A DNA stretch of 24,300 nucleotides, taken from the IMG/VR virus record IMGVR_UViG_3300046522_000727, positions 1-24,300 of that record; one strand, given 5' to 3'. The stretch comes from a virus. Numbering within the stretch: position 1 is the stretch's first letter; each line of letters begins with the position of its first letter. Below the pieces are notes generated by a model that saw only the letters and a program-made list of their open reading frames with translations, had not been told where the DNA came from and searched no databases. Of this stretch, positions 16,845-24,300 are shown one piece after another. The translations under genes were made by a program, and so were the position numbers.

Positions 16845-17272
16845 TGATCGCATGGTTTGTCGCCCTGTCGACGGGGCGCAAGATCGCCGTCGGGGTGGGT
16901 GCGGTGCTGCTGCTGATCGCGGCGGTCACCGGGCTGGTGCTCGCGGTCAACGCGCACGATGCGGCGCAGCGGCAGGCCGGGCGCGACGAGGTGCAGGCGA
17001 AGTGGAACGCGGAGAAGGCGGCCCGCTCGGCCGCGCTCACCGATTTCCAGACGTCGCTGAGCGGCGCGTTGCGTAGCGAGTTCGACCGATTCGGCGGTAA
17101 GCTGGCGGCGATCGACGCGACGGGCTCGCGGATATCGGTCGAGATGCCCAAGGCGATTGCCGCGGCGCCGCGCTATGCCGATCCCAATTGCGACCTGACG
17201 CCCGAGGTTCGCGACCAGATCAACGCCGGCCGCGCACTGTCGCGCCTGCCGCCATCGGGAGTGCCGCAATGA
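16844..17272 (+). CDS. Rz-like inner-membrane spanin
   Basis: 142 residues from ATG 16844 (one-base overlap TGATG). A single N-terminal membrane anchor lies at 12-35 (KIAVGVGAVLLLIAAVTGLVLAV). It is followed by a periplasmic charged helix from about 38 to 75 (AAQRQAGRDEVQAKWNAEKA), typical for i-spanins, and a Pro-rich end. The gene directly after it codes for a small lipoprotein, overlapping by four bases, which is the hallmark of an i-spanin/o-spanin pair. Together they would bridge and fuse inner and outer membrane in the last step of lysis of a Gram-negative host. Sequence identity to lambda Rz is not expected, so the call rests on topology and context. Confidence 0.7.
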   Translation: MIAWFVALSTGRKIAVGVGAVLLLIAAVTGLVLAVNAHDAAQRQAGRDEVQAKWNAEKAARSAALTDFQTSLSGALRSEFDRFGGKLAAIDATGSRISVEMPKAIAAAPRYADPNCDLTPEVRDQINAGRALSRLPPSGVPQ

Positions 17273-17559
17273 ACCGTCTGACCATCGCCGTGCTGGCGTT
17301 ACCGATGTTGGCAGCCGGATGCGGCGACGCGCGCCCGGCAATCGGCTTTCCGACGATCGACGATCTGCCCGCCAACGTGCGTGCGACGTGCCCGGCGTTG
17401 CCCGAGGTCACCGGCTCGCTCGGCGACCTTGCCACGAAGGACGCCCAGGCGGCGGTCGCCTATGCCGCGTGCGCGGCGCGGGGCGATGCGGCAGTGGCGG
17501 CGTACGCGATTGCTCAGGCCAAGCTCGCCGAGGCGCGTGCGAAGGCGGAGAAGCCCTGA
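17269..17559 (+). CDS. Rz1-like outer-membrane spanin lipoprotein
   Basis: 96 residues from ATG 17269, overlapping the Rz-like stop. The N-terminus is a lipoprotein signal: MNRLTIAVLALPMLAAGC with lipobox LAAG-C18. The mature part contains a Pro-containing stretch (PTIDDLPANVRATCPALPEV) and a helical, Ala-rich C-terminus ending KAEKP. A short lipoprotein after an anchored coiled-coil protein at the end of a lysis cassette is best read as the o-spanin. Compared with lambda, the two spanin genes are consecutive and not nested. A weak hairpin (CTGAC ... GTCAG, 17556-17571) follows the stop; it also overlaps the -35 region of the next promoter. Confidence 0.72.
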   Translation: MNRLTIAVLALPMLAAGCGDARPAIGFPTIDDLPANVRATCPALPEVTGSLGDLATKDAQAAVAYAACAARGDAAVAAYAIAQAKLAEARAKAEKP

Positions 17560-17564
17560 CGGGC

Positions 17565-17594
17565 TTGTCAGTCGTTCCACGTTTGTTCTACATT
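17565..17594 (+). promoter_or_regulatory. Sigma-70-like promoter with LexA (SOS) box in the spacer
   Basis: -35 TTGTCA (17565-17570) and -10 TACATT (17589-17594) are 18 bases apart. The spacer contains GTTC-CACGTTT-GTTC (17574-17588), a perfect match to the alphaproteobacterial LexA operator GTTC-N7-GTTC. The start point about seven bases after the -10 would be near 17601, which is the A of the ATG, so the mRNA is probably leaderless. LexA bound here would block polymerase; DNA damage should open the three-gene operon that follows. Confidence 0.75.
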
Positions 17595-17600
17595 TCAGCC

Positions 17601-17897
17601 ATGCCCGAGTCGAATCTCTCGCGCCCGCGCTGGGCGGACGATCCACCGGCGCCGCCCTTGCAAGCGGTCGCGCAGGCGATGGAGGCCGGGGAGACCTGGC
17701 TGTTCGCCTGGGCGATGCAGTCGACTGTTTCCTATCGCCTGTTGTCGCGCGAATGCCGGATCAAACAGGACCGGTTGTTGGCGATCGACGCCGGCGCGCC
17801 GATGACGCTCGACGAACTGGCGGCGTTGGCAAAGACTTGGCGGGTCGATCCCGACGATATCCGGCGCACGTTGCCGCCCGGCGCGCTGATCGAGTGA
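17601..17897 (+). CDS. Small HTH-like protein, first gene of SOS-type operon
   Basis: 98 residues from ATG 17601, the first base of the probable leaderless mRNA; the preceding gap has no ribosome site. The N-terminal 30 residues are Pro-rich and likely flexible (RPRWADDPPAPPLQAVAQA). Residues about 48-95 have helix-turn-helix rhythm: TVSYRLLSRECRIKQDRLLAID (helix, turn, recognition helix), GAPMTLDELAALAKTWRVDPDDIRRTLP, which resembles Xre/Cro-type repressors ('lAr..gis...l..ie.G.p.t..el..LA..w.v'). A DNA-binding role is inferred. Its stop overlaps the GTG of the next gene (GTGA). I do not recognise a named family. Confidence 0.65.
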   Translation: MPESNLSRPRWADDPPAPPLQAVAQAMEAGETWLFAWAMQSTVSYRLLSRECRIKQDRLLAIDAGAPMTLDELAALAKTWRVDPDDIRRTLPPGALIE

Positions 17898-18124
17898 GAC
17901 CCCGATCCTTCAAGAGCGAGCGCGAAACGCTGACAGAGCGCGCCAGGGCGTCGCGGGCGTCAATGGCATGGCTGTCGCGGGCGATCGGCCGCCCCGACCG
18001 CTATCTCGATCGCTTCGCCGCCGGCGGCCCGCCCATGGCGCTGGCACCGGCCGACCGCGAATGGCTCGCCCTGTTCTTCGGCGTTGGCGACGATGGTATG
18101 GGCATCCCGGCCAGCCGTGAATGA
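17894..18124 (+). CDS. Very small HTH protein, second gene of SOS-type operon
   Basis: 76 residues from GTG 17894, four-base overlap with the gene before. The whole protein is one short helical domain: SMAWLSRAIGRPDRYLDRF, then GGPPMALAPADREWLALFFGVGDDGMGI. This resembles the N-terminal DNA-binding domain of sphingomonad S24/LexA-like repressors, where 'lSr.iGRn..YL.qf...G.p..L...dr..LA.fFgv' is common. Here no peptidase domain follows, so it is a free-standing domain. It could act as a Cro-like regulator or as an antagonist of a full-length repressor encoded elsewhere; that is inference. The next gene starts eight bases before its end. Confidence 0.6.
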   Translation: MRPRSFKSERETLTERARASRASMAWLSRAIGRPDRYLDRFAAGGPPMALAPADREWLALFFGVGDDGMGIPASRE

Positions 18125-18518
18125 GCTGAGCCTGACCGTCGTCGGCATCGATCACCCCAATGCCGATCGCAGCAATCGCATGTTCGAACTGCTGCAATGC
18201 GTGCGAGGCGAGCGCATCGAGCTACGCCCCGAACCCAAGAACCCTTTCGACGAACACGCCGTCGCGGTATTCAGCGCGCGCGGCCGGCAGATCGGCTACC
18301 TCAGATCAGAGCGTGCGGTGATGATCGGCGCCCGCCTCCGCGCCGGCGAGGAATACGCTGCGCTATTCCAGGATCTCGACACCCACGCCGCCTATGTCCG
18401 CGTGCGCTTCGGCGGAGGCGTTCCTACGCTCCCGGTCGAGCGTGGCGATCACGACCCGCGCGCTGACCTTGGCGGCGATTTCCAGCCCGACCCCGAGGGG
18501 CCTGAGTGGGGCGCGTGA
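18117..18518 (+). CDS. HIRAN-domain protein, third gene of SOS-type operon
   Basis: 133 residues from GTG 18117, the only in-frame start consistent with a compact N-terminus; it overlaps the preceding gene by eight bases. Residues 4-85 match the HIRAN domain: LTVVGIDHPNADRSNRMFELL, CVRGERIELRPEPKNPFDEHAVAVF, then RQIGYLRSERA. The signature 'GE.i.L..EP.NpfD..Av.V....G..iGYl' is complete. HIRAN domains of Rad5/HLTF enzymes bind 3' ends of single-stranded DNA at stalled forks; stand-alone bacterial forms are poorly characterised. The last 40 residues are acidic and Pro-rich. Placement behind a LexA-box promoter fits a role when DNA is damaged or when the prophage is induced. Confidence 0.82.
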   Translation: MNELSLTVVGIDHPNADRSNRMFELLQCVRGERIELRPEPKNPFDEHAVAVFSARGRQIGYLRSERAVMIGARLRAGEEYAALFQDLDTHAAYVRVRFGGGVPTLPVERGDHDPRADLGGDFQPDPEGPEWGA

Positions 18519-18582
18519 TCGCCGTTCCGCCCTTCGATCAGTCCGGTGTATCTCCGGTGAAAGTCGCGGCAATTCGCCGTTT

Positions 18583-18597
18583 GTTCGGCGTCCGTTC
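18583..18597 (+). promoter_or_regulatory. Second LexA-box match (GTTC-N7-GTTC)
   Basis: GTTC-GGCGTCC-GTTC is an exact match to the alphaproteobacterial LexA consensus. Unlike the site at 17574 it has no convincing -35 or -10 around it and no gene follows on the + strand. By base counting, a match of eight fixed bases is expected somewhere in 24 kb about once, so this may be chance. Confidence 0.35.
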
Positions 18598-18650
18598 CGT
18601 CGTTCCGAATTAGAGGAATGGCGGATTTCTGCGGCTTTGCTGCATTGGCA

Positions 18651-18700
18651 CTGTGTTGACATCGCAGGGGTCGCAAGTTCAATCCTTGCCACGCCCACCA
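18651..18700 (+). other. Phage attachment site: 3' part of tRNA-Val(GAC)
   Basis: The bases fold exactly as tRNA positions 27-76: anticodon stem CTGTG/CGCAG, loop TTGACAT with anticodon GAC at 18658-18660, variable GGGTC, T stem GCAAG/CTTGC with loop TTCAATC, acceptor 3' strand CACGCCC, discriminator A and an encoded CCA (18698-18700). The matching 5' half (GGGCGTG acceptor and D arm) is absent: the 26 bases before it do not pair. This is therefore not a working tRNA gene but the copied tRNA end that tyrosine integrases use as attachment identity block. The integrase gene lies 111 bases to the right. Confidence 0.85.
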
Positions 18701-18703
18701 TCG

Positions 18704-18810: not shown

Positions 18811-19782
18811 CTACCAGTCCAACGCGGCAGCCGCGTCCTTCATGAAGCTCGGACTGTAGCGAGCATAGGCCCTCTCCGTGACCCGTGTTGAGGTATGTCC
18901 CAGGAACTGGGCAATCTTCTGCATCGGGACATCGGCCTGCGCCATCCAAACGCCCGCCGTGTGACGAAAGACGTGGGGGGAGCAAGCCACTCCAGACCGC
19001 CTCGACGCTTCGCGAATGGCCTTCTTGATGCTTCTTACCGGCTTACCATCCCACTCGATCACATGGGTGGTGAGTGCGCCACGTGCGGCTTCTTCGAGAG
19101 CAGCGTAGGCACGGCCGTTGATCGGTACTTCCGGACGGCGCTTGTTCGTTTGCTCCCGGCCCGAGGCGTTGAAGTTGATAACACGGTGCTTAAAATCGAT
19201 CTGATCCCACGTCAGCTCCAGGATCGCGCTCATCCTCGCCCCAGTGGTGACGGCAAGGACAACGAACAGTCGGACGTGGGGCGTGCCGACGTGTGCGAGC
19301 AACCGGTCGAGCTCATCGCGCGTCAGGTAGCGATCGCGAGGTCTGCTCTGTGCGGGCGTCCAGACGTGCGTGTTGCCGCGGCCATATTTCAGGTTGAGGC
19401 ATGCGCGAAGAAACTCGAGTTCAATGCGGATCGTGCCCGATGCGGCGCCTTGCCGCCCCCGCAGATCGGCATAGGACCGGCAATCCTCCTTCGTGATGTC
19501 ATAGCCAATGCGCTCGCCAAAGAACTCGCCCAGGCGTTTCCAGGCGTCCCGTTGACGCGCCGTGTTTTTGCCGTCTTGTTCACGGTCAGCGACGTAGAGG
19601 CGCCAAAGGTCCGCTACACGCTCGGAAGCGGGCCTGTGCAAATTACTCCAGATTTCGCGCGCTCTTGCCTCCGCTAAGCCGCGATCAGCCGTGCCAGTCG
19701 AGACGCGAACACGGTCTCGTCCGGAGCCGTATGCGAGGGCAAGCTTTCCTCGGTATTCGACAAGTTTGTAGGGCATTGGCAT
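18811..19782 (-). CDS. int: Tyrosine recombinase integrase
   Basis: 323 residues, full length. An N-terminal arm-binding region (about 1-50, LVEYRGKLALAYGSG...GTADRGLAEARA) is followed by a core-binding SAM-like domain (55-135) and the catalytic domain. Catalytic residues visible are R183 (TTGARMSAIL), H270 and R273 (HVFRHTAG), H296 (FLGHTSTRVTERAYARY) and nucleophile Y306. The C-terminus (YSPSFMKDAAAALD) is typical of the family. Start at ATG 19782; a second ATG two codons on is possible. It integrates and excises the element at the tRNA-Val site beside it. The N-terminal 109 bases overlap the excisionase-like gene in another frame, as int and xis overlap in lambda. Confidence 0.95.
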   Translation of the reverse strand: MPMPYKLVEYRGKLALAYGSGRDRVRVSTGTADRGLAEARAREIWSNLHRPASERVADLWRLYVADREQDGKNTARQRDAWKRLGEFFGERIGYDITKEDCRSYADLRGRQGAASGTIRIELEFLRACLNLKYGRGNTHVWTPAQSRPRDRYLTRDELDRLLAHVGTPHVRLFVVLAVTTGARMSAILELTWDQIDFKHRVINFNASGREQTNKRRPEVPINGRAYAALEEAARGALTTHVIEWDGKPVRSIKKAIREASRRSGVACSPHVFRHTAGVWMAQADVPMQKIAQFLGHTSTRVTERAYARYSPSFMKDAAAALDW

Positions 19783-23958: not shown

Positions 23959-24300
23959 CTACGCCCCCTCAGCTTCCTGATAGACGTCGACCTCGATCAG
24001 ATAGAACGTGATCATACCGCCAGCCGGCATGGCACCGGACTCGGGTACCTGCGGTCCACGATAGTGGATGTGAATGGCGCTCGTGCCCGGCTTTAGCATA
24101 GCGTAGCGCGCGGTTTCCTGCGCACCGGGAAAGGCGTTCTGGGCCAGCTTCTCATGGCTGATCCTGGTGGCAACGATTTTGGTGGCTTCGCCCACGCGCT
24201 CGCTCGCCTCTTCAGGCGTCACGATGCGGATGTAGGCGGTTGCGCCCTCACCGAACATGGCGGGCGAAAAGGTCGTCAGCACGTAATCTACGGTCGGCAT
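23959..24300 (-). CDS. DUF1874-like protein (STIV B116 / AcrIII-1 family candidate)
   Basis: 113 residues, starting with an ATG at the very edge, so the ribosome site is unseen and an earlier start is possible. The order of elements fits DUF1874: an N-terminal strand DYVLTTFSPAMF, VTPEEASERVG, a helix opening with ISHEKLA (family 'aiGH..TA'), then LKPGTSAIHIHYRGPQVPES and MPAGGMITFYLIEVDV (bacterial members: 'GD.liVaqy.GPRLPEGat.LPeGa.i.f.LV.V'). In AcrIII-1, His47, Arg85 and Glu88 matter for cleavage of cyclic tetra-adenylate. By my alignment from memory H49 and E87 are kept, but the Arg position is Gln84. It may be an anti-CRISPR ring nuclease, an inactive relative, or something else in the fold. 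Confidence 0.55.
   Translation of the reverse strand: MPTVDYVLTTFSPAMFGEGATAYIRIVTPEEASERVGEATKIVATRISHEKLAQNAFPGAQETARYAMLKPGTSAIHIHYRGPQVPESGAMPAGGMITFYLIEVDVYQEAEGA

Follow-up and report, generated by a model that had tools for sequence, protein, structure and literature searches.

Between the lysis genes and the attachment site of a temperate sphingomonad phage lie three overlapping genes which, with a probability of about 0.5, form a LexA-repressed regulatory cassette of antirepressor-like action, to which a factor for DNA ends or forks is attached. In the lysogen, LexA would occupy a box between the promoter hexamers and keep the operon off; DNA damage would remove LexA, and the three genes would then be expressed together. 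The products of genes 1 and 2 (g1 and g2) would tilt the lysis-lysogeny circuit to lytic growth, as non-cleavable DNA-binding or repressor-binding competitors of repressor function in the manner of LexA-controlled antirepressors, and the HIRAN protein encoded by gene 3 (g3) would bind 3' ends or stalled forks once the phage DNA has been excised and replicates. It should be noted that we infer the binding of LexA to the box, the targets of g1 and g2, the DNA-end binding of the HIRAN protein and the effect on induction.

The window, by which we mean the whole stretch analysed, is an IMG/VR virus record of 24.3 kb. Tail and lysis genes occupy its plus strand, integrase, excisionase-like and primase genes its minus strand, and it includes an attP (Table 1). 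As phage genes flank attP on both sides, the record represents a circular, concatemeric or free form rather than an integrated one. The cassette is placed at one phage end, between the spanins and attP, and the phage setting assumed in the earlier note was thereby borne out, as were the coordinates of its three overlapping genes (17,601 to 18,518). Genes 1 and 2 overlap by 4 bp and genes 2 and 3 by 8 bp, and an excess of third-position changes in all three, in comparison with relatives, indicates that they are real coding genes. In the related phages of L009 and L012 a separate S24 repressor (CI) is encoded at another place, so that the cassette, next to att and behind the lysis genes, probably lies outside the immunity region. 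The window does not extend to the CI region: the repressor of the phage itself is missing from the 24.3 kb, where PF00717 has no match, and this counts against an antirepressor-like action. A megablast of the 14–24.3 kb part against phages gave no match, nor did a single-sequence scan of genome contigs. At the far end of the window (23,959 to 24,300), a guess of DUF1874/AcrIII-1 received no confirmation from Pfam.

Table 1. Features of the cassette and its surroundings in the window.
Feature	Position	Strand	Basis
Rz1-like spanin, last late-operon gene before the cassette	17266..17559	+	phrog_456; NF038368 sub-threshold
Sigma-70-like promoter TTGTCA-18-TACATT enclosing the LexA box	17565..17594	+	pattern scan
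LexA box GTTCCACGTTTGTTC (GTTC-N7-GTTC), 12 bp before the g1 ATG	17574..17588	+	exact match; spacing kept in L009 and L165
Gene 1 (g1), 98 aa, ATG start, XRE-like HTH mini-protein of an SOS-associated sphingomonad family	17601..17897	+	profile searches, fold prediction
Gene 2 (g2), 76 aa, GTG start, stand-alone DNA-binding domain of host S24 regulator type, no peptidase	17894..18124	+	profile search, fold
Gene 3 (g3), 133 aa, GTG start, HIRAN protein of the phrog_27141 family	18117..18518	+	Pfam, PHROGs, PDB profile
attP core identical to the 3' part of host tRNA-Val(GAC)	18650..18701		sequence identity
Tyrosine integrase, boundary of the cassette	18811..19782	-	PF00589 3.5e-23; phrog_1

SOS control of the operon, as the earlier note had proposed, is well supported at the level of sequence. 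The promoter is the sole match of a pattern scan of the region (1 found against 0.1 expected) and encloses an exact LexA box. The abundance of such boxes alone is not significant in the window, where two exact copies compare with 0.66 expected by chance and at least two occurred in 14 of 100 shuffles; rather, the box is convincing because of its position inside the promoter and because of a spacing that is common to two related phages. In L009 the box is identical, in L165 it differs in the spacer alone, and in both exactly 12 bp separate it from the start codon of g1, despite flanking DNA that has diverged among the three. L072 has two LexA boxes, one 5 bp before the operon and the other before the mini-HTH gene. 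The same class, GTTC-N7-GTTC, is the LexA motif of Caulobacter (PMC12700426) and is found upstream of lexA itself in the two Sphingomonas genomes examined, those of L072 and L074. LexA would thus be predicted to bind at 17,574 to 17,588. The second exact copy in the window (18,583 to 18,597) is located between the HIRAN gene and attP with no obvious start codon near, and is overlapped by a one-mismatch copy at 18,572 to 18,586.

The position of the box in the promoter, its conserved spacing and the boxes at L072 support an antirepressor-like action, the more so as LexA control of antirepressors encoded outside the immunity region is well established, examples being Tum of coliphage 186, AntC of N15 and GfoA/GftA of the Gifsy phages (PMC3121763). 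Like these, the cassette consists of small phage genes with a LexA box at the promoter, where binding is predicted; it lies beside att, as such loci do, and probably outside the immunity region. Tum of 186-like phages has a second part that resembles DinI, which shows that such a gene can bring a further function with it (PMC3121763). Unlike Tum, AntC and GfoA/GftA, the cassette is built of HTH mini-proteins and a HIRAN protein, with no sequence relation to them; Pfam, PHROGs and NCBIfam gave no relation to any known antirepressor, which speaks against the preferred reading.

The first gene belongs to a rare sphingomonad family with an SOS association of its own. Its product has a weak HTH_26 match in Pfam (E = 0.066) and an XRE-like predicted fold. 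A search of the phage collection with g1 gave no match; homologues are found in phages L009 and L165, and more distant ones in a few host genomes, with ten strong host loci in 9 of the 398 genomes searched. The association rests on the exact LexA boxes 134–907 bp upstream at 8 of these 10 loci, and these boxes, together with those before lexA in two genomes, also favour an antirepressor-like action of the cassette. Behind several host homologues stands a gene for a conserved, zinc-ribbon-like protein of about 105 aa with paired cysteines, and behind one (L163) there are two SRAP genes. Rare host SOS operons with a g1 homologue and this zinc-ribbon-like protein are seen at L157, L160, L163 and L171–L177.

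The third gene encodes a genuine HIRAN protein, as had been recognised from its signature: it matches PF08797 at E = 8.8e-8 (32.3 bits against a gathering cut-off of 24.7), phrog_27141 over its full length (1e-38) and the HIRAN structures of HLTF by profile at about 3e-5. It keeps the NP[FY]D and QIGYL core of the domain known from HLTF/Rad5 and from BIT20_019 of Stenotrophomonas phage DLP4. In HLTF, Y72 and Y93 contact DNA by stacking; the NPYD motif reads NPFD in g3, so that Y93 is probably replaced by F, and the region of Y72 falls outside the aligned stretch. Unlike HLTF and Rad5, g3 is a stand-alone protein without helicase or RING, and its DNA-end binding is putative, as is the role in excision or replication put forward in the earlier note. 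Scans of IMG/VR and GTDB contigs yielded 72 strong relatives, 62 of them distinct (window included). In 54 of the 62, a full HTH-S24 phage repressor precedes the HIRAN gene in the same orientation and at a distance of at most 2.2 kb; 17 of these pairs are directly adjacent and 37 have one to several variable genes in between. Hence, the HIRAN family belongs to lysogeny control regions, which again supports the antirepressor-like reading. The window operon shares the HIRAN family and the setting in a phage regulatory region with the S24 repressor–cargo–HIRAN operons of sphingomonad phages; unlike them, it has no full S24 repressor upstream on the same strand, and a LexA box, found in 1 of 64 S24-HIRAN operons, replaces the repressor's control.

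A maximum-likelihood tree places the window HIRAN in a 10-member clade (support 100/97), nine of whose members, among them plasmid copies and phages L165 and L072, have no S24 neighbour; changes of the S24 label on the tree number 5, against 12.2 in shuffles. In this lineage HIRAN thus left the repressor operon, and it came under a LexA box in three of the members, namely the window, L165 and L072. The plasmid copies rule out that HIRAN occurs only in prophages, and its presence alone on plasmids counts against an antirepressor-like action. On Sphingomonas and Sphingobium plasmids (L166–L168, L170) its neighbours, if any, are MucR and HU genes, and genes of AbiE-type toxin-antitoxin systems lie close by.

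The main rival to the preferred reading is a repair-type SOS "moron", that is, a phage-borne damage-tolerance cassette for fork or end protection which stands apart from the repressor circuit and in which the mini-HTH proteins tune the cassette's own expression only. Such a role would fit the g1 homologues in host operons with LexA boxes, once with the two SRAP (abasic-site/SOS) genes and the small zinc-ribbon-like protein, as well as the HIRAN domain of HLTF/Rad5, which works at DNA ends and forks (PMC4666394), and the solitary HIRAN genes on plasmids. The strong tie of the HIRAN family to phage S24 repressors, and not to repair genes, points the other way, and two regulatory HTH proteins exceed what autoregulation needs, so we regard the repair role as a genuine if doubtful possibility.

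Turning to the second gene, g2 by itself has no Pfam match, and as a lone query it found nothing in viral contigs. A profile built from two phage copies, by contrast, recovers open frames of 210–250 aa in 182 of 200 Sphingomonadaceae genomes. Among the 34 profile matches listed, 33 carry an S24 peptidase, confirmed as PF00717, the exception being a phage mini-protein. The AlphaFold model of g2 (pLDDT 79) matches the HTH of 434 repressor, P22 c2, DdrO and LexA type with high probability and weak E-values, the fold matches in general lying above 0.03. Profile and predicted fold thus agree with the earlier description of the 76-residue protein as the N-terminal DNA-binding domain of an S24/LexA-like repressor without a peptidase, although the weakness of the E-values tells against the antirepressor-like reading that the repressor-like fold otherwise supports. 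The stop codon of g2 directly follows the DNA-binding domain; unlike the S24/LexA-family repressors whose DNA-binding domain it matches (host S24 regulator, phage CI), g2 has no Peptidase_S24 domain and hence no RecA-stimulated self-cleavage. We do not favour g2 as a dominant-negative fragment of the phage CI, since the L009-related phage CI has a different HTH (HTH_31) and the mini-HTH profile misses the repressors upstream of HIRAN, save for one marginal match. Of the damage-triggered switch put forward earlier, the SOS promoter therefore stands, and the dominant-negative repressor domain is disfavoured as a piece of the phage's CI, g2 being closest to the host S24 regulator.

This similarity raises the question of whether g2 targets the host regulator, as a mimic of its DNA-binding domain that occupies or blocks its operator during phage takeover. 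The regulator, on which a literature search found nothing, has one strongly conserved palindrome, AATCCTACTTGTCTAGGAAAAA, in its promoter (22 of 40 genomes), likely its autoregulatory operator. We consider the mimic improbable: the palindrome has no copy in the window, the host offers at most one site per genome and thus little gain, and the predicted recognition helix reads NxxYLQQYITKGSPRKL in g2 against PDRYLDRFAAGGPPMAL in the host regulator. An operator common to both should therefore not be assumed, and the difference weighs against the antirepressor-like reading as well. At many host S24 regulator loci (L115–L144), a GTTC-N7-GTTC box close to a small divergent gene is found some 290 bp upstream.

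The genes carried between S24 repressor and HIRAN in sphingomonad phages (L002–L006, L011–L059, L073–L090) encode AAA/STAND ATPases, DUF1828 and DUF7946/7947 proteins, an SDH-type protease and membrane proteins, and this interval looks like a hotspot of accessory genes, which may act in defence or superinfection. The window operon itself might serve in anti-phage defence or as a toxin-antitoxin system, HIRAN being the antitoxin or sensor, for it occurs beside HipA as the predicted antitoxin "HipI" (PMC11706625), the window HIRAN matches the defence candidate PDC-M03B (8.8e-8), and the cargo elsewhere includes AAA/STAND and DUF1828 (PDC-M24B) proteins. We judge this to be quite improbable, given that the operon holds no toxin-like or enzymatic gene and that its predicted expression is damage-induced and not constitutive.

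A search for the three-gene set across sphingomonads revealed modularity and no fixed set. The order box–g1–mini-HTH–HIRAN was found in the window only. L009 has box–g1–mini-HTH, with no HIRAN anywhere in the record; L165 has box–g1–HIRAN, plus an XRE-mini gene on the opposite strand; and L072 has box–unknown gene–HIRAN, plus a box and mini-HTH gene adjoining a tRNA. The recurrence of the pairs g1–g2 (L009) and g1–HIRAN (L165) alone rules out an obligate trio. Although reassorted, the parts remain at the same end of the phage behind the lysis genes, a constancy that speaks for a common purpose. Decay of an S24 repressor–HIRAN operon, with g2 as a functionless truncated repressor, would explain an S24-type domain minus its peptidase where a full repressor normally precedes HIRAN, but is very improbable in view of the mini-HTH genes of similar length in L009, L165 and L072, the LexA boxes in L009 and L072, the coding constraint in both pairs tested (window with L009 and with L165) and the failure of the mini-HTH profile to match phage repressors.

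With regard to novelty, a literature search found no described system of this composition, in keeping with what the earlier note had stated. The control principle is known, whereas the components and the S24-HIRAN association appear to be new, so that the antirepressor-like cassette would be a variant of a known principle. LexA-controlled antirepressors are, to our knowledge, little described in Alphaproteobacteria, for which the cassette offers a testable SOS-induction module. Phage and bacterial HIRAN proteins are mostly orphans for which a repair role has been guessed. Their consistent position directly behind S24 repressors in sphingomonad phages, and the one lineage on LexA, lead to the hypothesis that the choice between lysis and lysogeny involves binding of DNA ends or forks. 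As a tentative and rather unlikely extension, HIRAN may be a lysogeny-control component of S24-repressor phages that informs the repressor circuit of DNA ends or broken forks, rewired in the window to LexA with peptidase-less repressor DNA-binding domains. Of note, one of the S24-HIRAN loci (L015, 740–1549) encodes what by eye is a Rha/KilA-C-like antirepressor, two genes upstream of HIRAN.
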